Source of the DNA: Tetradesmus obliquus
Taxonomy: Eukaryota; Chlorophyta; Chlorophyceae; Sphaeropleales; Scenedesmaceae
Assembly (NCBI GenBank): GCA_030272155.1
Contig: CP126197.1
Coordinates: forward strand, 5,138,001 to 5,202,000
Direction of reading: 5' to 3'
DNA: 64,000 nt
How positions within the stretch are numbered: position 1 is the first letter of the stretch; every line of letters starts with the position of its first letter. The position numbers and the translations under genes were made by a program. Under the pieces are notes generated by a model. The model searched no databases. It worked only from the letters and a program-made list of their open reading frames with translations, and had not been told where the DNA came from. Below, in pieces: positions 27,024 to 42,569 of this stretch.

Positions 27024-27116
27024 CTTGGTTATGCAGGTTGGGATATGAGCAAAGACACAGTGCAGCACTTTGCTGAAGCCGTTGGGCTGTTCTGCTATCA
27101 CGCTCAGGGTGGGCTA

Positions 27117-27153
27117 CCCAAATCAGGGCGGCGGACCGCCCACCTGATTTGGG
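27117..27153. repeat. Imperfect hairpin in segmental duplication (copy 1)
   Basis: CCCAAATCAGG...CCTGATTTGGG arms with GGCGG/CCGCC inside and a 4-base loop. The same hairpin occurs in copy 2 at about 34407-34443. Confidence 0.8.
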
Positions 27154-28718
27154 TGTTCGTGGTTTGTGTTAGCTGTGACACAATGACACCTTTTCGTGAC
27201 GGTGATCCACACACGAATGTAACCAGCATCATTCAAGCAACTCAGCTGCATCGTGGATGTCTGTTTAGCACATCAGATGGGCGAATGATGTCTGCAGGTG
27301 ACACATCTGCACGGCGTTCGCCATGGCATGCAGCATGAGCGCATGTGGGATTGCCAACCAGTGAATGCTGGGAGTGGCCGCGCTGAATGGCCGCCCAGCT
27401 ACCTCTGCTAAACAAACTGTTACATCTGGCTGTTCGTTACAGCTCGTAGTGTAGCAGTGGTTTGCTGTCACCTAGAATGAGGTGAGACTGTTTGTGCCAT
27501 GGATCATCCATCACACGCATGATGCTGTGACTCATAGCTGCAGAGTCAGCAAATCTGGCACAAGTAAGTCGTCAACGGCACACTCGTCGCAGCGAATCAA
27601 AGGTTGCTCTCTTATTCTGGCACGGTTTGAGACCAAAACTCACCGGTTCGGTTCACTGAATTGTCAGACAGCTGAGGGTCTATACCCTGACTCGTTGACC
27701 GGTAGCTGCACCCTGGACACTCACGGTCTATACTTAAGGCCTTTACACTCAGCGATGGCTACAATTCAGGCTATTACTGCAGTATCCAATCGTCTGCGTA
27801 AGAGTTTATTAACTAGTCTTGTCTGACACAGGCTACCTAGTGCTACCAGTGTATTACCTGGCAAGCACGTCCGACACTAGCAGTAACGAGACAGCGCGAT
27901 CTTAGACGAAAACTAACGTCTTGAAGCGCATCAGTCGCAGCAGATACATGGCATACAACGTGGCATACGGGTAAGCCCAGCCTGGAGTAAATGATCCGGC
28001 ATGGCCGGGCAACATCGGCAGCAGCATCTTATATGCTGTGATCCAAGCTGAAACCACTTCATCTCTCTCTGCTACTGCCCGCAGGGAAGGAGGTGGGTGC
28101 TGGCTTGACCAAGTCAAAGCCACGCTGTTCATCCGCTCGGGACGGTGCATCTCCGCTACGTAACCAATTTCCCGTGCCTTGCTTTGTTTTCCTACGGTTT
28201 CACGGTGGAAGGGGGTTGGGTTGCTTACTCTGCATATCTGCTTTGCCTGCAGGCCAGCTGGCTACACAGCTGGCAGGAGAGACTGGCACAGCAGCAAACT
28301 GGCAGGCATGGTGAGCACTTTCAAAGAGTTTTGGAGATAGCGTGCTGGCTGCTTTTGGGACTATAAATCCAGCACATATAATAATGCCAGGCACAAGCAC
28401 AGGAGCTGTCCCCCTATAGCAGCGGTGATGCAGGGCAGTGACTGCTCAGTGCTTCAAGCATATGCATGGGAGAGCTGCAGATCCCTGCATCTGCTGCAGC
28501 AAAGGCCACAGCCGCGTTGCGTTCAGCAACTCAGCCATTAGGCTGCATGAAGCTGGCCATCAAGCTTGCTGCTGTCTGGAGTAGCTGTCTGCACCCTTGC
28601 CTCGTAACCCTTTGCTTACCCCTGCTGCTGCTGCAACCGCCCCTGCTGCAACCGCCATCCATTCAGCAAGCGCATCTGTGCTGATGAGGAGTCTGGAGAG
28701 TTCCTGCTGCCCCTGGAG

Positions 28719-30274
28719 ATGGTGCAGAAGGTGATGAGCTGCCTGGCACAATTCGAAGCTGATGGAGTGAGGGGCCCCTCAATGGTGGCGTGCGACCTGG
28801 CAAACGCGGCACTGGTGAGTAGCGGGGGAGCATGCCCACCTGGTTAGGACAGCAAGCTGCTGTGATGCTGTGCAGCGCCATGCACAGGGAAGCAAACTTT
28901 GCAGATCGAAGCTGAATTGTTGTGCAGCACCATGCACAGGAGATGATGCAGAAGGAAAGTGCTGTACATAAAAGTGTCTACATAAGTCCACATAGGTCAC
29001 AGACAGCAGCACACCCTGCTTGACAGCAGGACACCCTGCCTGCCCTGCTTAATATGCCAGCACAGCCTGCAACATTCTGGCTTGCCTGCTGCGGCAAAGA
29101 CACACACAGCAACCTGCATCCCACTGTTTTCTATCAACTCGGCACTCACCCACTGCTGTGTGTTGTGCAGGTGAGCAAGGGCTTCCACAAGGCCTCCAAG
29201 TTTGGTTTCTCGACCTTGGAGGAGCAGACAGCACAGCTGCAGGTGCTGCCGAGCAGTGACTTTATCATTCCTGCAAGCGTGCGCTGCTCCAGAAAGACAC
29301 TGGCACGGCTGCAGCGCCTGCCAGAAGCTGGAGGCTGGAGCTGGCAGCAGTGGGCTGCTTGCCTGCAGGACCCCATGCAGTACAGTGTCTACGAGCTGAA
29401 GAAGGCAGCAAGGCAGCTTGCAGTGCCAGGCAACAGCAGCAAGCTCGTAATCAGCATCCTGCAAGCATTTGGCCTGCAGCAGCCCAGCAGCGTAGCGCCT
29501 CAGCTGCTGCGGGCAGTGCTGCTGGAGCGCTGCTGCAAATGCCCATGGGCTGGGTGTGAGCAAATCAGCACTGTATGGGAGGTCCTGAAGGACTGGAGCA
29601 GCAGCGAGATCGACCGCAAGTGGCCCGGCTTGAGCAAGAGGCTGTTGGATGACAGCTGCAGCACAGCCGCAGCGCGGCGCAGGGCGTTGCAGATGTACAC
29701 GGGTGCCTGCAGCAAGCAGCAGCTGCAGGGGCTGCTGTTCCTGGCGCTTCAGACGGAGGAGTATGGCGAGTGGCTGCGCAAGGTGGTGCTGGAGCCATAT
29801 GCGCAGTATGGGACGATGCTGCAGGAGCTGGCAGTTGTAATGCGTGAGCCGCAGCAGAAAATGCTGGAGGTGAAAGGGCAGCTCCAGCAGCGGCAGCAGC
29901 AGCAGCAGCAAGAGCTGGTTGGTTCGGCCCTGCTGCAGCTGCAGGCAATGCAGGAGCTGGCTGATACTGCCCTGCAACGGCTGCAGGAGGTGGCAGAGCT
30001 GAGGGACAGACTCCAGCAGCAGCTGCAGGAGCTGCCGCAGGTTGTAGCCCGGATGGTCAAGCGTCACCAGGAGCTGTCGCAGATGAGTGGCAAGCAGCTG
30101 CAGGGGCTGCTGGAGGAAATTGGCAGGCAGCCAAAGGAGCTGCCAGAGTGCCAGCAGAAGATGGACCAGACGCTGAGTGAGGTGATCAGCATGCGGCAGA
30201 GGCTGGACGAGTGGGTGCAGCAGGTGAACACAAACTATAATTTCACAAGCATCCAAGAAGCGGAAAACCGCTAG
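28719..30274 (+). CDS. F-box-like / SAP-like / coiled-coil protein, paralogue 2
   Basis: Exon 1 ends at 28814 (CTG|GTGAGT). Exon 2 is 29171-30274 after ttgtgcag. From the ATG at 28719 the product is 399 residues. The homologous frame upstream (SGEFLLPLE, as in paralogue 3) suggests a start in an earlier exon. Order: F-box-like segment (MVQKVMSCL...DLANAALVSKGFHKAS), SAP-like VYELKKAARQLAV...ILQAFGL, then a Gln/Leu coiled coil (QLQQRQQQQQQELV and similar). The first half is almost identical to paralogue 4. The second half (after 29427) belongs to the type of paralogue 3 (CPWAGCEQ, DIDRKWPGLSK, MYTGACSKQQLQGLLFLALQ). The gene is thus a mosaic. A decayed C-terminal tail, related to the LAWVLL membrane-like segment of paralogue 3, follows the stop. 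Confidence 0.72.
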
Positions 30275-34295: not shown

Positions 34296-35448
34296 CTGAA
34301 GCTCAGAAATCCCTCTTGGTAATGCAGGTTGGGATATGAGCAAAGACACAGTGCAGCACATTGCTGAAGCCGTTGGGCTGTTCTGCTATCACGCTCAGGG
34401 TGGGCTACCCAAATCAGGGCGGCGGACCGCCCACCTGATTTGGGTGTTCGTGGTTTGTGTTAGCTGTGACACAATGACACCTTTTCGTGACGGTGATCCA
34501 CACACACATGTAACCAGCATCATTCAAGCAGCTCAGCTGCATCGTGCCTGTTTAGCACATCAGATGGGCGAATGATGTCTGCAGGTGACACATCTGCACG
34601 GCGTTCGCCATGGCATGCAGCATGAGCGCATGTGGGATTGCCAACCAGTGAATGCTGGGAGTGGCCGCGCTGAATGGCCGCCCAGCTACCTCTGCTAAAC
34701 AAACTGTTACATCTGGCTGTTCGTTACAGCTCGTGGTGTAGCAGTGGTTTGCTGTCACCTAGAATGAGGTGAGACTGTTTGTGCCATGGATTATCCATCA
34801 CACGCATGATGCTGTGACTCATAGCTGCAGAGTCAGCAAATCTGGCACAAGTAAGTCGTCAACGGCACACTCGTCGCAGCGAATCAAAGGCTGCTCTCTT
34901 ATTCTGGCACGGTTTGAGACCAAATCTCACCGGTTCGGTTCACTGAATTGTCAGACAGCTGAGGGTCTATACCCTGACTCGTTGACCGGTAGCTACCAGC
35001 TATAGCTGAACCCTGGACACTCACGGTCTATACTTAAGGCCTTTACACTCAGCGATGGCTACAATTCAGGCTATTACTGCAGTATCCAATCGTCTGCGTA
35101 AGAGTATATCAACTAGTCTTGTCTGACACAGGCTACCTAGAGCTACCAGTGTATTACCTGGCAAGCACGTCCGACACTAGCAGTAACGAGACAGCGCGAT
35201 CTTATGCGAAAACTAACGTCTTGAAGCGTATCAGTCGCAGCAGATACATGGCATACAACGTGGCATACGGGTAAGCCCAGCCTGGAGTAAATGATCCGGC
35301 ATGGCCGGGCAACATCGGCAGCAGCATCTTATATGCTGTGATCCAAGCTGAAACCACTTCATCTCTCTCTGCTACTGCCCGCAGGGAAGGAGGTGGGTGC
35401 TGGCTTGACCAAGTCAAAGCCACGCTGTTCATCCGCTCGGGACGGTGC

Positions 35449-35451
35449 ATC
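35449..35451. repeat. Target-site duplication ATC, left
   Basis: ATC is repeated at 40457-40459. The empty site in copy 1 (28149-28151) reads ggtgcATCtccgc. A 2-bp duplication (AT or TC) with one chance match cannot be excluded. Confidence 0.85.
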
Positions 35452-36174
35452 CAGCTGGGTATGGTACAAACGTAGCATCTGCATTTTGCAACAAATCAAC
35501 ACAGCTTGCAAGCAGACAGCCATGCTGGCATAGCAACCTGCTGTATGTGGCAGGCACAGTAAGGCACAGCTGCCAGTGCTGCTGCTTTGGTTTGCTTGCA
35601 TCCCAACTGCACAGCAGGGCCCCCACCTGCCAGCAGCAGCAGCTTCAAACTGCTAGTAATTTTGAGCTCCAGAATTCGCCTTGATCACACAAGAAGGATG
35701 TTTGCAGGAAACTGTGTAGAATACTAGTCCTCAACAAACTCTGTGCAGCCACACTAGCTGCACGCGCGCAGCAGCTGCCGGTGGGCCTGAAGCGGTGTTG
35801 CGCACTATGTAACAGATATGACAGTTGAAACTGTATGTGCAGCGCACAGCGCCAAGCAGCAGAGCGCAACAGCAGCGGCAGGGCACTTGGCACACCAGAA
35901 CTGCAGTGCCTGATCAGCCAGCAAGGGAAGCCCAGAAGTATTACATTACACATCAAAACATGTTGCAGGCAGCAGCACCCACAGCAACACTCTACAGCGC
36001 AAGTTAACATATGTAACAGTCGAGTCGGGGCACTTCAGGGCAACGTGTTTTTAGCTCTTTTCTTGCAGTACACTGTGCCACTGCTAACAGCTCAAATTGA
36101 TTTAGGTTCGTCGTTGAAAGCTTGACATTTATATGTAGGCCACTTGTTCGCTACGTTTGTACCATGCCCAGCTG
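35452..36174 (+). repeat. Left 723-bp terminal direct repeat with inverted ends
   Basis: It has no convincing coding frame, only short frames that are the same in both copies. By itself it looks like a MITE. In this position it is the left end of the 5-kb element. Confidence 0.92.
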
Positions 36175-36282
36175 AGACCGGTCAAACTCCATGATGCCGC
36201 AGGCTGTTGTTTGACCTGACCAGTTACTTCTGTTCACACTGCTGCTAGAAGCACAGCTAACATATCCATACGTTTTGGATTC

Positions 36283-38486
36283 ATGCCTGCAGGGGGGCTG
36301 TCCATGGTGCGCAAGCACCCTTCAGGATGGAAGAGCAACCGCAGCACCACGGCCATGAGGGTGGCGGCGGTGGTGTGTGTGATAATGGCTTTGACCACAG
36401 CTGACGAAAAGTTTACGCCCGCATATTATTACAGAGAGCAGTACCCTGACTACGCCAAGGAGGTACACGGGGACCTGAACCGGTTCTGCAAACTTCATCA
36501 CAAGAACTTCACAGCAAACGGCACAGTGGCTACACCCAAGCATGGCGGCAGGCCCTCAAATGTCCCACATGCTGTCGCCTTCCATGCCAGCACAATATTC
36601 AAGGCTGGCAAGGTGGTAAAGGCCTACCCATCGGCAGATTCAAAGAGAAAGGTTGATGTGCACGTGTGGTGGACTTCAATCGAAGTCGCATGTCAGGAAA
36701 ATGACACACTGCGCCAGCTGTGCACTGACTACAACATCACACCCAAGAGACTGCTGAAGTACATGAAATGGGCTGACCCCGACCTGGTGCGCAGGAGAAT
36801 AGATGTGAAGCTGGACTTGACAAAGATACAGAAACAAAGGCGAAAGGCAGCAGCTGCGGCGCTGTGGCAGAAGTACCAAAGTGACCCCGACATGCTGCAG
36901 CGCATATATTTCATTGATGAGTGCAAATTCTGGATGTCAGACCTGGCAGGCGGCTCCGTCAAGGTCTATTGTGATGCACACGATGAAAACGTGCATGCTG
37001 TGCTGCCATGCAAATGGATGCGCAAGGGCAAGGACGCAGAGCCGGTCAAGTTGCACTTTGTCTGCGCCGTCAACGCTGTGCACGGGCCCGTCTACTGCAA
37101 GTTTGTCACCGGCACAACAGACAACAAGGACCATGCTGGCAACCTCAATGTACCGTACATGGTGAGTGTGCGCTGCTACTGCGCAGGCGCCTGCCATCGA
37201 AAGACATGCCAGCCCTGCTGTACTGTGTAGTAACAGTCCCGCAGTGCTTTTTTTAGTGCTGTAGTGAAGCTGCAGCGCTGCCCGTCCTCTGCTGTGAACA
37301 TAACAGCAGAGTAACTTGGTGACAGTACAATGACACCACCTGCAGCAGCAAGCTGGAAACCAATGTGCAAGGATTGGTGCATGTCACATCCGCGCGTGCT
37401 CACGCGCAGCACACTGCCCCCTGGCTGCAGCCAGTTGTCATATGCTGCAGCGCAGAACTCAAAGTCGCGCTCCAGCACCTGCTGCCTGCTGCTGCTGTAA
37501 TAACCCTTGTCATGACATGAGCCATCAGCTTGAATCAGCATGTTGTGCTGTGCATGGAGGAAATCAATCCGCCCATCCCACCAGTCCACTACTACCTGAG
37601 CACACATACTGCTGCTGATGCCTAACCAATACAGCATGCACACCAGCTGCTCCTCGCTTGTGTGCATGTAGCCCATGCATGTGCCAACCATATCAGCCAG
37701 CACACATGCACACATCTTGCACTGAAGCGCTGCTGCTGTGGCGACTGCACGCGGCGCGCAGAACTTGAAGTGCTGCACACCTGGCAAGCATCCAGTCAAG
37801 CCCCAGAACAATCTCTGCCCCCTCATAGACTTGGTGATGTATCTGACCTTGTCTGCACTGAGCCTGATGTAGAAGCGTCCCATCGCATCCATCCACACCG
37901 CTGCGTTGCGCTCCTGCGCTGCTAACAAGGCTGCGCGCTGCCAATCCGGCAATTCTTGCACCTGCAGTTGAAGGACAAACCAACCCAGCAGGCCAAGAGC
38001 ATGACTCAGCTGGAGTTTGTTCACTGCATGATGGAGATCAAAGACATAGCCGACCAACAGCAGGCGCAGCGCGGCACTACGCCGCTGTACATCTTTGACA
38101 ACCCAAGTGTTCACCTGGGGAAGGATGGCCTACAGATGTTGGTTGCAGGTGGCATCAATGAAGATCAACTGCTGCACATTGCACCCTACTCCCCAGATTT
38201 CAACAAGCCCATTGAACATGCATTTGGCAGCCTCAAAGCAGCCTTCCGCAACTACTTGTATAACAGCTGCCAGCTGGGTGGTGCTGATGTGAAGCCGCGA
38301 GACCTGCAGCACGGCCTGTACAACACCTTTATGAAGATCACAGCTGCATCTGTCATGGCTGATGTATTGAAGCTGCCAGATTTGTGGAACATGGTGCGCA
38401 GCCGCAAGAGGAGTCTTTGTGTGTGCCGAGACGGGAAGCAGCGCCGCGGCACTGCTGGCGACTACCCCAGGAAAGACCAGCGCTGA
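36283..38486 (+). CDS. IS630/Tc1-mariner superfamily DDE transposase
   Basis: Exon 1 is 36283-37161 (ending TACATG|GTGAGTG). Exon 2 is 37968-38486 after cacctgcag, phase 0. Total 465 residues. The catalytic triad is visible: first Asp in FIDECKFWM (followed by AVNAVHGPVY), second Asp in LYIFDNPSVHLGK, and Glu in APYSPDFNKPIEHAF. There are 38 residues between the second Asp and the Glu, a DD38E-like spacing. The N-terminus has helix-turn-helix-like sequence (LRQLCTDYNITPKRLLKYM). All key residues are present and both exons are open, so the gene may be functional. An upstream exon is possible: ctgcag lies just inside the first codons. Confidence 0.85.
37162..37967 (+). other. 806-bp GT-AG intron of the transposase gene
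   Basis: Borders are GTGAGT...CTGCAG, phase 0. Its opposite strand is almost completely open (see 37176-37892). I see no inverted repeats at its ends. Confidence 0.8.
37176..37892 (-). CDS. Putative Vsr/EDxHD-like PD-(D/E)XK nuclease encoded antisense in the transposase intron
   Basis: The frame runs from the first in-intron ATG (37892) to TAG at 37176, 238 residues. It is also open upstream to 37967 and on through the antisense of exon 2. The pattern of a Vsr-like nuclease core is visible: RIDFLHAQHNMLIQADG, then SCH a few residues later, a downstream D in LERDFEFC, then GGSVLRVSTRG and SPSYSAVMF. The order Asp, Asp-Gly-x-x-His, then a Leu-Arg-Val strand matches EDxHD/Vsr-type endonucleases and related open frames I associate with algal repeats. 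This is recognition by eye. The N-terminal 100 or so residues (PDWQRAALLAAQERNAAVWM...) are not assigned. Alternatives are a degenerate mobile gene fragment or a chance antisense frame. Confidence 0.5.
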   Translation of the reverse strand: MDAMGRFYIRLSADKVRYITKSMRGQRLFWGLTGCLPGVQHFKFCAPRAVATAAALQCKMCACVLADMVGTCMGYMHTSEEQLVCMLYWLGISSSMCAQVVVDWWDGRIDFLHAQHNMLIQADGSCHDKGYYSSSRQQVLERDFEFCAAAYDNWLQPGGSVLRVSTRGCDMHQSLHIGFQLAAAGGVIVLSPSYSAVMFTAEDGQRCSFTTALKKALRDCYYTVQQGWHVFRWQAPAQ

Positions 38487-39733
38487 GTCTGCTGTTGTGC
38501 TGCTGCATGGCATGTAGGGATTGTGGCTGTCAGCTGCATGCAAGATGGCTGGCCAGCAGTGCACAGGGTGTCACTCAGAGAGCCCTTGAGCTCACCTGTT
38601 TGAGGGCACCTGCGCTTGTCGCCGTCCTGCATGTTCGCACCGCCCGGGGCTTGGGAGGTGCTGGCACCATGCTGCTGTAGGGTGGTTACTTCCTGGTGTT
38701 CACCTGAGAGCGAGTGTGGGAACAAAATGGCATGTTCAGAAGCTTATTGTATGAGTAAACTACATGTGGATGTTGTGCTTTGGTGCTCAGACTTGTCAGG
38801 AGCGGTTCCTGCTTCAAACGACTGCTGCAAGGCAGCAAGGCACTTGGTGGCCATTTCACATACAGGCATTTGCAGTCATGCTGAATTGCCGAATGTAATG
38901 GTAAAATTACTGTCATAATTCAACTACGCTCGAAGCTCTTGAACATGGCTCCTGCTGCTGTCACTCGCGTTAATTGTGACGACTGTTGGCCTGCCAAGCG
39001 ATATGCACGGAGCCTGCAAGAAACCTTGCGGTCGATTAACTTTTAAATTTGATGATTGATTTAAGCATGGCTTGAGCCGAAATAAACTGCGATATGGTGA
39101 AGAACTTCAAGACGGAAAGGTGCCCTGAAACAAGCCTGCTCCGAGCCACACAGCTGCCACGCTGCCAACTTATCATCGTCGACACATTATGCAACGTACC
39201 TTTGGTTGAAGCAGAAAACCAATCCTGACGGGCCCTCGCAAGCCCACGTTGCAGGTGAGCCTGACGGGTCAACACGGATGTCCAGAGCACTGCAGCTCGA
39301 TCGCGTTGCTGCAGCACCTGCATACAATTTGTTTTGAACATTGAACGACGTTAAACACAGCGCAGTGCTGAAAGGCTTCGCCAAAAAATTAGGTGGCAGC
39401 AGTGAGGCACCTGCTGGCACATGCTGCTGCTGTCACGCCCACCAACAACTGCAGTTGAAAAACACATGCCACCGTGATTCACAGCATACATAGCTGTAAC
39501 GTTTCCTGTTGTCTGCTGCTGCTGCTGCTCCTGCCCAGGCAGATATCATATATTGCAAACAGTGCTACTGCCGCAGTAAAATCAGCTGCATACCCAGCAG
39601 CAGCAGGAGCACATCAGCCATAGCATAAAAAGGTAGGTGTGCACTTCAGGCACCAAGTCCAGGAACAGCAACAGAAGGGATGCAGTGCAGGCTAAGAACT
39701 GCTGCAGCAAAGGCTGGCATGCAATCACAGTCT
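38487..39733. other. Right part of the transposon core, no recognised gene
   Basis: 1.25 kb between the transposase stop and the right terminal repeat. A minus-strand frame of 77 codons (39420-39187) is open but unrecognised. The core ends GTCT and begins AGAC, a 4-bp inverted match. Confidence 0.5.
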
Positions 39734-40456
39734 CAGCTGGGTATGGTACAAACGTAGCATCTGCATTTTGCAACAAATCAACACAGCTTGCAAGCAGACA
39801 GCCATGCTGGCATAGCAACCTGCTGTATGTGGCAGGCACAGTAAGGCACAGCTGCCAGTGCTGCTGCTTTGGTTTGCTTGCATCCCAACTGCACAGCAGG
39901 GCCCCCACCTGCCAGCAGCAGCAGCTTCAAACTGCTAGTAATTTTGAGCTCCAGAATTCGCCTTGATCACACAAGAAGGATGTTTGCAGGAAACTGTGTA
40001 GAATACTAGTCCTCAACAAACTCTGTGCAGCCACACTAGCTGCACGCGCGCAGCAGCTGCCGGTGGGCCTGAAGCGGTGTTGCGCACTATGTAACAGATA
40101 TGACAGTTGAAACTGTATGTGCAGCGCACAGCGCCAAGCAGCAGAGCGCAACAGCAGCGGCAGGGCACTTGGCACACCAGAACTGCAGTGCCTGATCAGC
40201 CAGCAAGGGAAGCCCAGAAGTATTACATTACACATCAAAACATGTTGCAGGCAGCAGCACCCACAGCAACACTCTACAGCGCAAGTTAACATATGTAACA
40301 GTCGAGTCGGGGCACTTCAGGGCAACGTGTTTTTAGCTCTTTTCTTGCAGTACACTGTGCCACTGCTAACAGCTCAAATTGATTTAGGTTCGTCGTTGAA
40401 AGCTTGACATTTATATGTAGGCCACTTGTTCGCTACGTTTGTACCATGCCCAGCTG
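39734..40456 (+). repeat. Right 723-bp terminal direct repeat with inverted ends
   Basis: Same length and, as far as read, the same sequence as 35452-36174. Followed by the target duplication ATC at 40457-40459. Confidence 0.92.
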
Positions 40457-41025
40457 ATCTCCGCTACGTAACCAATTTCCCGTGCCTTGCTTTGTTTTCC
40501 TACGGTTTCACGGTGGAAGGGGGTTGGGTTGCTTACTCTGCATATTTGCTTTGCCTGCAGGCCAGCTGGCTACACAGCTGGCAGGAGAGACTGGCACAGC
40601 AGCAAACTGGCAGGCATGGTGAGCACTTTCAAGAGTTTTGGAGATAGCGTGCTGGCTGCTTTTGGGACTATAAATCCAGCACATATAATAATGCCAGGCA
40701 CAAGCACAGGAGCTGTCCCCCTATAGCAGCGGTGATGCAGGGCAGTGACTGCTCAGTGCTTCAAGCATATGCATGGGAGAGCTGCAGATCCCTGCATCTG
40801 CTGCAGCAAAGGCCACAGCCGCGTTGCGTTCAGCAACTCAGCCATTAGGCTGCATGAAGCTGGCCATCAAGCTTGCTGCTGTCTGGAGTAGCTGTCTGCA
40901 CCCTTGCCTCGTAACCCTTTGCTTACCCCTGCTGCTGCTGCAACCGCCCCTGCTGCAACCGCCATCCATTCAGCAAGCGCATCTGTGCTGATGAGGAGTC
41001 TGGAGAGTTCCTGCTGCCCCTGGAG

Positions 41026-42569
41026 ATGGTGCAGAAGGTGATGAGCTGCCTGGCACAATTCGAAGCTGATGGAGTGAGGGGCCCCTCAATGGTGGCGTGC
41101 GACCTGGCAAACGCGGCACTGGTGAGTAGCGGGGGAGCATGCCCACCTGGTTAGGACAGCAAGCTGCTGTGATGCTGTGCAGCGCCATGCACAGGGAAGC
41201 ACACTTTGCAGATCGAAGCTGAATTGTTGTGCAGCACCATGCACAAGAGATGATGCAGAAGGAAAGTGCTGTACATAAAAGTGTCTACATAAGTCCACAT
41301 AAGTCACAGACAGCAGGACACCCTGCTTGACAGCAGGACACCCTGCCTGCCCTGCTTAATATGCCAGCACAGCCTGCAACATTCTGGCTTGCCTGCTGCG
41401 GCAAAGACACACACAGCAACCTGCATCCCACTGTTTTCTGTCAACTCGGCACTTACCCACTGCTGTGTGTTGTGCAGGTGAGCAAGGACTTCCACAAGGC
41501 CTCCAAGTTTGGTTTCTCGACCTTGGAGGAGCAGACAGCACAGCTGCAGGTGCTACCGAGCAGTGACTTTATCATTCCTGCAAGCGTGCGCTGCTCCAGA
41601 AAGACACTGGCACGGCTGCAGCGCCTGCCAGAAGCTGGGGGCTGGAGCTGGCAGCAGTGGGCTGCTTGCCTGCAGGACCCCATGCAGTACAGTGTCTACG
41701 AGCTGAAGAAGGCAGCAAGGCAGCTTGCAGTGCCCAGCAACAGCAGCAAGCTGGTGTCCAGTATCCTGCAAGCATTCGGCTTGCAGCAGCCCAGCAGCGT
41801 GTCGCCGCAGCTACTGCGGGCAGTTCTGCTGGAGCGCTGCTGCCCAGAGCCGTGGGCTGGCTGCGAGCAGCTCAGCCTCGCAGGGGGCTTACTGCAGAAG
41901 GTGGGCCGCAGTGGAATTGACAAGCTGTGGCCTGGCTTGGGCGAGCAGCTGTCCGCCAGCGGCCTCACTTCTGCAGCAGAGCTGCGCAGGGCGCTGCACA
42001 CGTACACAGGCGCTTGCAGCGCGAGGCAGCTGGGGCAGCTGCTGAAGCTGCAGGAAGTTTTGATGCAGCACCACCACTCCTTCAAGCAGGGGTACAAGCT
42101 CACGCAGGAGGCATTAGCAGATGCCGTGCAAGCGCTGCAGCAGCTGCTGGAGGAGCGGCGCCGGGCGCTGCAGCAGATGCAGCGGCTGCAGCAGCTGCAG
42201 CAGCAGCAGGCTTTGGAGGAGCAAGAGCTCACCCAGCTGAAGGAGGAGATGGTCCAGTGCCAAGAGTCGACGTCAGAGTGTGTGGTTATTGTGACTAGCC
42301 ACATTCAGCAGCTGGCACAATGGTGCAAGGAGTGGGAGGCGGCCCTGGTGCACACGCTCATGGTGCCAGTGCAGGGCTATTGTACAGAACTTCGGGAGGT
42401 GCTGCAGTGGGGCGGCGAGCGGGTGCAGCAGCACTTGGAGAAGGCGTGCCAGGAGCTGCAGGAGCAGCTGCTGCTACCACTTGAGCAGCTCCGCACAGAG
42501 TTGCAGGCTGCGCAGGCGGCAGTGGCTGCCGAGGTTACTGCTGCAGCTGCTGTCAGTGCGATTGAGTGA
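41026..42569 (+). CDS. F-box-like / SAP-like / coiled-coil protein, paralogue 4
   Basis: Exon 1 ends at 41121 (CTG|GTGAGT). Exon 2 is 41478-42569 after tgtgcag. From the ATG at 41026 the product is 395 residues; an earlier start exon is likely, as in paralogue 2. The F-box-like and SAP-like parts are nearly identical to paralogue 2. After 41734 the protein follows the paralogue 1 type (CCPEPWAG, KLWPGLGEQLSASG, LEKACQELQEQ). The C-terminal third is coiled coil (LLEERRRALQQMQRLQQLQQ). A hydrophobic frame just after the stop (CVWLELQLVVAAAAALPLAV) may be a detached C-terminal membrane segment. Confidence 0.73.

Follow-up and report, generated by a model that had tools for sequence, protein, structure and literature searches.

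Can a eukaryotic DNA transposon be built as a composite unit, with long direct repeats at its ends that are themselves bounded like transposons, and how would such repeats be kept alike? This question is raised by a 5005-bp element at positions 35452-40456 of a 64,000-nucleotide stretch of the Tetradesmus obliquus genome (assembly GCA_030272155.1, contig CP126197.1, positions 5,138,001 to 5,202,000; hereafter the window). It is organised as R-C-R, with two identical long terminal direct repeats (R, 723 bp each) around a 3559-bp core (C), and each R has inverted termini of 25 nt at 96% identity. This is the structure that the initial annotation, made from the letters of the window, had described as two 723-bp direct repeats with inverted ends of about 25 bp around a 3559-bp core. 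We interpret it, with a probability of roughly 0.8, as an autonomous composite-like DNA transposon with a central DDE transposase of IS630/Tc1-mariner-like motifs and an antisense candidate nuclease, which would be excised and form arrays by the mechanism proposed below. The anatomy, target-site duplications, tandem arrays, excision scars, inverted blocks and conserved second open reading frame (ORF) can be read from the sequence.

The element lies in a duplicated host segment, of which the two copies in the window (27024-29737 and 34315-42044) are 94-97% identical; the duplication supplies an empty site. Compared with this paralogue, the left flank of the element is 97.0% identical (1141 columns) and the right flank 94.0% (1592 columns). 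The paralogue reads ...GGTGCATCTCCGC... at 28149-28151 and carries no insert there. The single ATC at this site bears out the claim that all 5005 bp were inserted together with a 3-bp duplication of ATC. At the inner borders of R no duplication is found: AGAC follows the left R and GTCT precedes the right R (GTCT, R, AGAC in core-R-core order), in agreement with the statement that neither repeat has a duplication of its own. In the family to which the window copy belongs (family 1), R begins with CAG and ends with CTG. Coordinates are listed in Table 1.

Table 1 Features of the element and its insertion site in the window, and inverted blocks elsewhere. Positions without prefix refer to the window; C1 to C17 are the 17 contigs of the 104.66-Mb assembly.
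Feature	Position	Strand	Remarks
Paralogous empty site	28149-28151		single ATC
Left target-site duplication	35449-35451		ATC
Left R	35452-36174	+	723 bp; own inverted ends 35452-35476 / 36150-36174
10-bp island in left R	36022-36031	+	GAGTCGGGGC; kept between R of two families
Core end	36175-36178		AGAC, reverse complement of opposite core end
Transposase exon 1	36283-37161	+	293 amino acids; helical N-terminal part; presumed first catalytic D (D212, FIDEC); predicted start codon and splice sites
Intron	37162-37967	+	GTGAGT...CTGCAG, 806 nt; predicted from two exon frames
Antisense ORF nested in intron	37176-37961	-	stop included; probable Vsr/DUF559-like endonuclease
Transposase exon 2	37968-38486	+	172 amino acids and stop; presumed second D (D337, FDN) and E (E376, PIEH), DD38E spacing
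Core end, other side	39730-39733		GTCT
Right R	39734-40456	+	723 bp, identical to left R
10-bp island in right R	40304-40313	+	GAGTCGGGGC
Right target-site duplication	40457-40459		ATC
Inverted block	C3:7161225-7179071		R-(C-R)4
Inverted block	C3:7194033-7199036		R-C-R
Inverted block	C5:4687674-4692678		R-C-R
Inverted block	C16 about 211.0-216.0 kb		R-C-R

Genome-wide copies, tandem arrays and the nature of R

The 25-bp end of R occurs 179 times in forward and 182 times in reverse orientation in the genome at up to three mismatches, compared with 0 for a reversed-pattern control, so this end is not a chance sequence. Cores were searched for with transposase exon 2, and 150 of 401 candidates were scored, which makes the counts lower bounds. 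At least 150 cores, all 98-100% identical at exon 2, are present in the 104.66-Mb genome; judging from identical copies, the element was probably active recently. The scored cores form 31 clusters (a single scored core in 16 of them, between 2 and 27 in the other 15), ranging from a single R-C-R unit to a 111-kb array of 27 cores on C5, and further cores lie beyond them on C14 and C6. The 119 neighbour pairs are spaced by 4279-4282 bp (R + C) in 89 cases and by 3561-3564 bp (C + 3, in one case C + 5) in 28, the latter marking the loss of R. Two gaps of 10558 bp, both at one locus, contain R and host DNA and are the only departures from R or scar spacing. On C16 (891800-925050) a segment of about 10.6 kb, made of the element and about 6.3 kb of host DNA with AGT at the borders, is tandemly repeated; its host part holds long frames that look virus-like by eye (zinc-finger and ATP-binding types).

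Target-site duplications were read at both ends of 32 family-1 insertions, namely 30 of the 31 clusters (all but C14:2664197, whose right end was not reached), a solo R and a copy of R deleted to 345 bp; the tandemly repeated cluster at C16:891.8-925 kb was counted once. A matching 3-bp duplication, one per insertion, was found in 30 of the 32, over insertion lengths from 345 bp to 111 kb. Examples are GGG around the solo R on C12, ATT around a 59-kb array on C3, CGG around a 97-kb array on C12 and ATC around the 111-kb array on C5. The 30 duplications comprise 24 different triplets and four contain TA, and membership of Tc1/mariner, for which a TA duplication would be expected, was rejected.

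R has terminal inverted repeats (TIRs) of its own and apparently can be excised alone, as would be the case if it were an unrelated miniature inverted-repeat transposable element (MITE) that landed twice by chance beside a transposase gene, the whole then moving passively as a one-off macro-transposon. One full-length solo R (C12:4565162, with the GGG duplication) and the 345-bp deleted R do exist. Among 40 R copies scored of 292 candidates, however, the C12 copy is the single full-length R outside an R-C structure, and the inner R junctions are without duplication. The two R of one insertion were compared in 14 of the 16 single-core clusters; those on C6 and at C16:4317053, in which the right R is truncated, were left out. 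The two copies show 0-1 differences in 13 of the 14 monomers and 18 in one, whereas R copies of different monomers differ at a median of 11 of 723 positions (91 pairs, range 0-30). The same plan, again with an R of 723 bp, is kept by a second family whose exon 2 and second ORF have diverged by 30-42%. Taken together, these data make two chance landings very improbable. That R is a common MITE is ruled out by the one solo R in 40, the counts of R ends and the near-identical R pairs. Among the 150 scored family-1 cores none with different termini was seen, and all cluster ends that were read (the right end on C14 was not reached) carry R or a remnant of it. Thus, the comparison of solo repeats with full units and their duplications, which the initial annotation had proposed, favours the composite unit, and neither of the outcomes it had named against this unit, an independent MITE or a core with other ends, was seen.

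Two side observations concern R itself. The 345-bp copy (C1:9134755-9135099), in which positions 1-182 are joined to 557-723 and which has its own TAT duplication, is a MITE derived from R. At C16:223915-224335, a 421-bp insert interrupts an R, with R positions 679-683 on both sides; it is perhaps another mobile element with a 5-bp duplication.

It appears that, as with long terminal repeats (LTRs), both R of an insertion derive from a single one. This identity could come from turnover of R-C units in an array and later excision of a monomer, or from an R-C circle. Long identical direct repeats, a solo R and repeats shared between units of a tandem array would likewise suit an LTR-type or other retroelement with R as the LTR. 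This alternative is extremely improbable, as no reverse transcriptase or integrase was found and 13 ORFs of core and R match only DDE_3, DUF559 and one family at chance level. Moreover, R has 25-bp inverted ends, the transposase gene has an inferred intron and removal of R leaves a 3-bp scar.

The second family was searched for with the relative P0010, and 136 of 382 candidates were scored; single copies at C13:4261399 and C6:5693421 and inverted units on C13 lie outside what was read. New arrays were found on C13, C10, C4 and C14, with spacings of 4307/3587 bp on C13 (4307 on C10) and 4310/3590 bp on C4 (4310 on C14), which differ by 720 wherever both occur. One family-2 R was measured; it is 723 bp long and about 72% identical to family-1 R by BLAST (70% by global alignment). 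All four arrays are bounded by matching triplets: TAA on C13 (~217 kb), AAA on C10, ACA on C14 and ATG on C4 (~150 kb). Exon 2 of the family-2 transposase is 69% identical to that of family 1, with a ratio of nonsynonymous to synonymous change (dN/dS) of 0.38.

How the arrays arise can be approached through their units. In three family-1 arrays fetched whole, full units are identical: 14 cores and 13 R on C3, 3 cores and 4 R on C4, and 6 cores and 3 R in a second array on C5. This identity, and a single matching 3-bp duplication even at 111 kb in family 1 and 217 kb in family 2, would be expected if arrays did not grow in place but were built extrachromosomally, as R-C circles or rolling-circle concatemers, before inserting as a single long unit. 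The C12 array, in contrast, retains two core variants. Spacings with and without R alternate there six times running (3562/4280) and three times in C5 (3562/4282), a pattern that resembles later duplication of R-less blocks and points to blocks having been duplicated after R was already lost. We regard an extrachromosomal origin as a serious but minority possibility and prefer growth of the arrays in place.

Excision scars, inverted blocks and a proposed mechanism

Where R is missing between two cores, a short scar is left. We read 30 intact R-less family-1 junctions: 28 follow from the spacings among the 150 scored cores, one lies in a truncated C16 copy and one farther on in the C14 array. 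A damaged C6 junction, in which a core end, CAG and AGAC are followed by other sequence, was left out. Between GTCT and AGAC, the scar is CTG in 18, CAG in 11 and CAGTG in one. Arrays duplicate junctions, and the 30 junctions are therefore not 30 independent events. Both CAG and CTG scars occur within the C3 array, the 111-kb C5 array, C12 and one C16 array. Excision scars of mariner elements follow the logic of staggered cuts, and the scars described here are those expected from a 3-nt staggered excision of R, which apparently can be removed alone. In family 2, the 13 R-less junctions that were read carry scars of 3 or 4 bp (CAG in eight, CTG in four, CATG in one).

Inverted core blocks may give a second record of rejoining. 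In all four that were read with their borders (Table 1), the border R is inverted along with the core. In addition, two single R are inverted within C5:1700387-1727090, and the monomer at C5:6497730 has the order R-, C+, R-. Orientation changes in 8 of the 119 neighbour pairs, always at R-length spacings, a count that is weak by itself because 89 of the pairs have such a spacing anyway. The inverted blocks fit excision and rejoining of a block bounded by TIRs.

We propose the following mechanism. R is a 723-bp unit whose TIRs point outward and in which no gene was recognised, and the transposase would pair any two outward TIRs, thereby excising R, R-C-R or R-(C-R)n. If the 3' strand were cut at the end of R and the 5' strand 3 nt inside, the donor would be left with two CAG 3' overhangs, which could pair except for a central A:A, to be repaired to either CAG or CTG. 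Rejoining would yield the 3-bp scar, or the excised block would be put back, sometimes inverted; insertion elsewhere would create a 3-bp duplication of no fixed sequence. Breaks caused by excision of R, by the nuclease or by both may be repaired from misaligned sister copies, which would add R-C units. Such misaligned repair would give rise to tandem arrays inside one duplication and would keep the R of one insertion nearly identical. The overhang chemistry, the trigger of amplification and the activity of the nuclease are what we infer here from sequence patterns. The mechanism offers a route by which a cut-and-paste element could make long tandem arrays from one insertion.

The transposase and the antisense open reading frame

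The predicted transposase, of 465 amino acids, is composed of exons 1 and 2 and displays D212, D337 and E376 (DD38E); relatives occur as separate exon-1 and exon-2 frames. The motifs FIDEC, FDNP and KPIEH (of the DE..., DN... and PIE type) are present and conserved, with weak profile scores. Exon 2 matches DDE_3 (3e-5, below the Pfam cut-off), the only Pfam DDE family matched at E<=1, and IS630 (2e-4, far below the NCBIfam cut-off). DDE_3 is matched by 12 of the 14 alignment members, the query included. That the core holds a DDE transposase, as first noted, is supported by the exons found, with profile matches that are weak and below cut-off. By sequence, the exon-2 profile reaches SETMAR, which we take to be a transposase-derived protein, in the Protein Data Bank (PDB) at E values of 0.05 and 0.36, next to centromere protein J at 0.11-0.32. 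In a comparison of the C4 array with the window, both exons have a dN/dS of 0.14, and 90 of 1247 positions differ in the 3' region.

The transposase intron is filled by an antisense ORF of 261 amino acids, counted from the conserved start of homology and without a clear ATG start. It has 14 homologues, 44-95% identical, with 46 invariant columns; five of the 14 have been named very-short-patch-repair endonuclease by JGI. Conserved residues include D189 and H206, as numbered in the 317-aa frame. DUF559 is weakly matched by 10 of 15 members (best score 16.6 bits against a cut-off of 20.6, in P0043; best E value 0.0074). In the members for which coordinates were shown, the matches lie at or across the conserved RVDFLHAQHxMLIQADGSCHD. 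One member, P0041, matches DUF6239 (0.0049) better than DUF559, and no Pfam family was matched by P0033 or the family-2 ORF. In a genome search for DUF559 at E<=10, six places were scored, each with 14.1 bits; five lie within copies of the antisense ORF and the sixth at C6:5868860. The ORF had no match in NCBIfam, scattered matches in 1-2 of 15 members in PHROGs and none by sequence in PDB; its AlphaFold2 (AF2) model, at a predicted local distance difference test score (pLDDT) of 61.9, gave no PDB fold match at E<=0.001. No HNH or His-Me family was matched by the antisense ORF, and ten other ORFs of core and R were without a nuclease match. The protein is probably a PD-(D/E)XK nuclease of the Vsr/DUF559 type, as suggested by these profile matches and names.

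The frame could, in principle, be a chance opening opposite the intron with no gene at all. The missing ATG, the want of a profile match over a curated cut-off and a noisy dN/dS inside family 1 (0.22-0.82 on 8-11 changes) would all be compatible with this; the 14 homologues and 46 invariant columns are not what chance would predict. Furthermore, the ORF is present and open in the C10 family-2 copy, at 58-58.9% amino acid identity to family 1, with a dN/dS of 0.48 and the third codon position most changed (69/65/85 of 258). A chance frame is thus improbable, and we retain the candidate nuclease gene.

A possible target of the nuclease is suggested by the empty junction. The core ends are complementary over 4 bp in family 1 and 5 bp in family 2, so the junction without R forms a palindrome around W of 11 bp (GTCT-CWG-AGAC) or 13 bp (GCCTT-CWG-AAGGC), which is interrupted by the presence of R. 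Between the families the core ends changed together yet stayed complementary (AGAC/GTCT in family 1, AAGGC/GCCTT in family 2). As a speculative and rather unlikely idea, the palindrome may be the recognition site of the element's own endonuclease: loss of R would expose the junction to cutting, and R, often with extra R-C units, would be copied back from a neighbour that bears R. If true, a homing-like repair loop would both sustain and multiply a composite transposon, and would have evolved in parallel with the animal element KolobokP (see below) with a different nuclease. The nuclease may equally well have its site within R. In two truncated copies (C16:4321822 and C5:1726939) R breaks off at GAGTCGGGGC, and in the 345-bp copy the break lies about 14 bp upstream of it.

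Several observations weigh against the autonomous transposon and mechanism favoured here. Two of the 32 insertions have no matching duplication: C8:1662872 (TAT/TCT), whose R copies are the pair 18 differences apart, and C6:5917134 (GGT/CTC), whose right R is truncated. The perfect identity of array units could partly be an effect of assembly or polishing, and inversions could arise by ordinary recombination once one inverted copy exists. Family-2 R has unequal ends, CAG...GTG, so CTG scars would need partial use of both ends; they are not simply derivable from these ends and are not fully explained. The DDE assignment is drawn from weak, sub-cut-off profile matches and motif spacing, and the AF2 model of exon 1 (predicted template modelling score 0.34) found no PDB fold match at E 0.001. 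The nuclease call is drawn from sub-cut-off DUF559 matches, the JGI names and a poor model with no PDB match. Finally, each of the 11 nuclease copies listed on C17 is interrupted by a single TGA within the match; arrays may therefore be able to exist without an intact copy in cis. On C16, the nuclease copies at 735914 and 748754 have one TAA inside the match; stop-bearing copies stand in arrays of up to 10 units.

Relation to known systems

KolobokP is an animal transposon with an internal region (INT) between long terminal direct repeats (LTDRs) that have TIRs of their own, repeats by which it was described as standing apart from every other DNA transposon (Kojima & Bao 2022, PMC9587614). The two systems share the order LTDR-INT-LTDR with a TIR on each LTDR, solo repeats, (LTDR-INT)n-LTDR multimers inside one duplication, INT-INT junctions after repeat loss, a constrained repeat length, and a DDE transposase accompanied by a second, antisense nuclease gene (PMC9587614). 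The architecture itself is not new, since KolobokP has the same plan (PMC9587614), and no other published report of it was found in a literature search made without most subscription journals and preprints.

The differences concern nearly every component. The transposase belongs to another superfamily, here IS630/Tc1-mariner-like and lacking the C/DxxH of Kolobok; this motif is absent from 12 of 12 aligned sequences spanning both motifs (two of the 14 being too short), an alignment that includes no direct comparison with Kolobok sequences. KolobokP encodes a His-Me finger nuclease, as opposed to the Vsr/DUF559-like candidate inside the transposase intron, and its repeat is ~450 or 660 bp long instead of 723 bp. 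In KolobokP, 3-4 bp of the internal region are nearly always lost at the junctions, whereas those reported here gain 3 bp of the R end. Arrays reach 111 and 217 kb here, the hosts differ, and inverted R-bounded blocks are not described for KolobokP in the text available. With the same architecture but a different transposase superfamily, nuclease and junction chemistry, the algal element looks like an independent second origin; it is apparently the same kind of system as KolobokP and not a member of it.

Tc1/mariner elements and the wider IS630-Tc1-mariner group resemble it in presumed D, D, E motifs of the DDE_3 type and in a scar of the staggered-excision type, and differ from it in that long direct repeats, DD38E and a second gene are found here. 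Zator elements likewise make a 3-bp duplication, and the kinship with them that the initial annotation suggested is a possibility. One published account ranks Zator as a superfamily within the IS630-Tc1-mariner group (PMC7386202). In bacterial composite transposons flanked by insertion sequences, two TIR units likewise move a central segment. They provide an analogy only, because here the transposase is central and no gene was recognised in the end units. Of the initial interpretation, the composite-like DNA transposon that moves as one unit and has TIR elements as its repeated ends stands, and the bacterial-type composite does not extend beyond this analogy.

The genome-wide view adds tandem arrays and excision scars to what the initial annotation could see, and the antisense second gene, which lies in the window, is absent from that annotation. 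The value of the system lies in its apparent independence from KolobokP and in the junction record that it carries. A second lineage arriving at the KolobokP plan would turn a curiosity into a recurring strategy and suggests that the design works. It would also make testable the question of how the ends of composite elements are kept, as two independent systems could then be compared and scars and inverted blocks record past excisions.

Outside the assembly, no related locus was confirmed among viral contigs (47 and 34 pattern matches in two scans) and prokaryote genome contigs (57). The exon-2 and nuclease relatives P0018 and P0032 both have a longest contig of 2947 bases and perhaps come from one contig. 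The contig of P0030 has 4409 bases, i.e., 4282 + 127, which, as a guess, is the length expected of a circularised tandem unit assembled at k=127.

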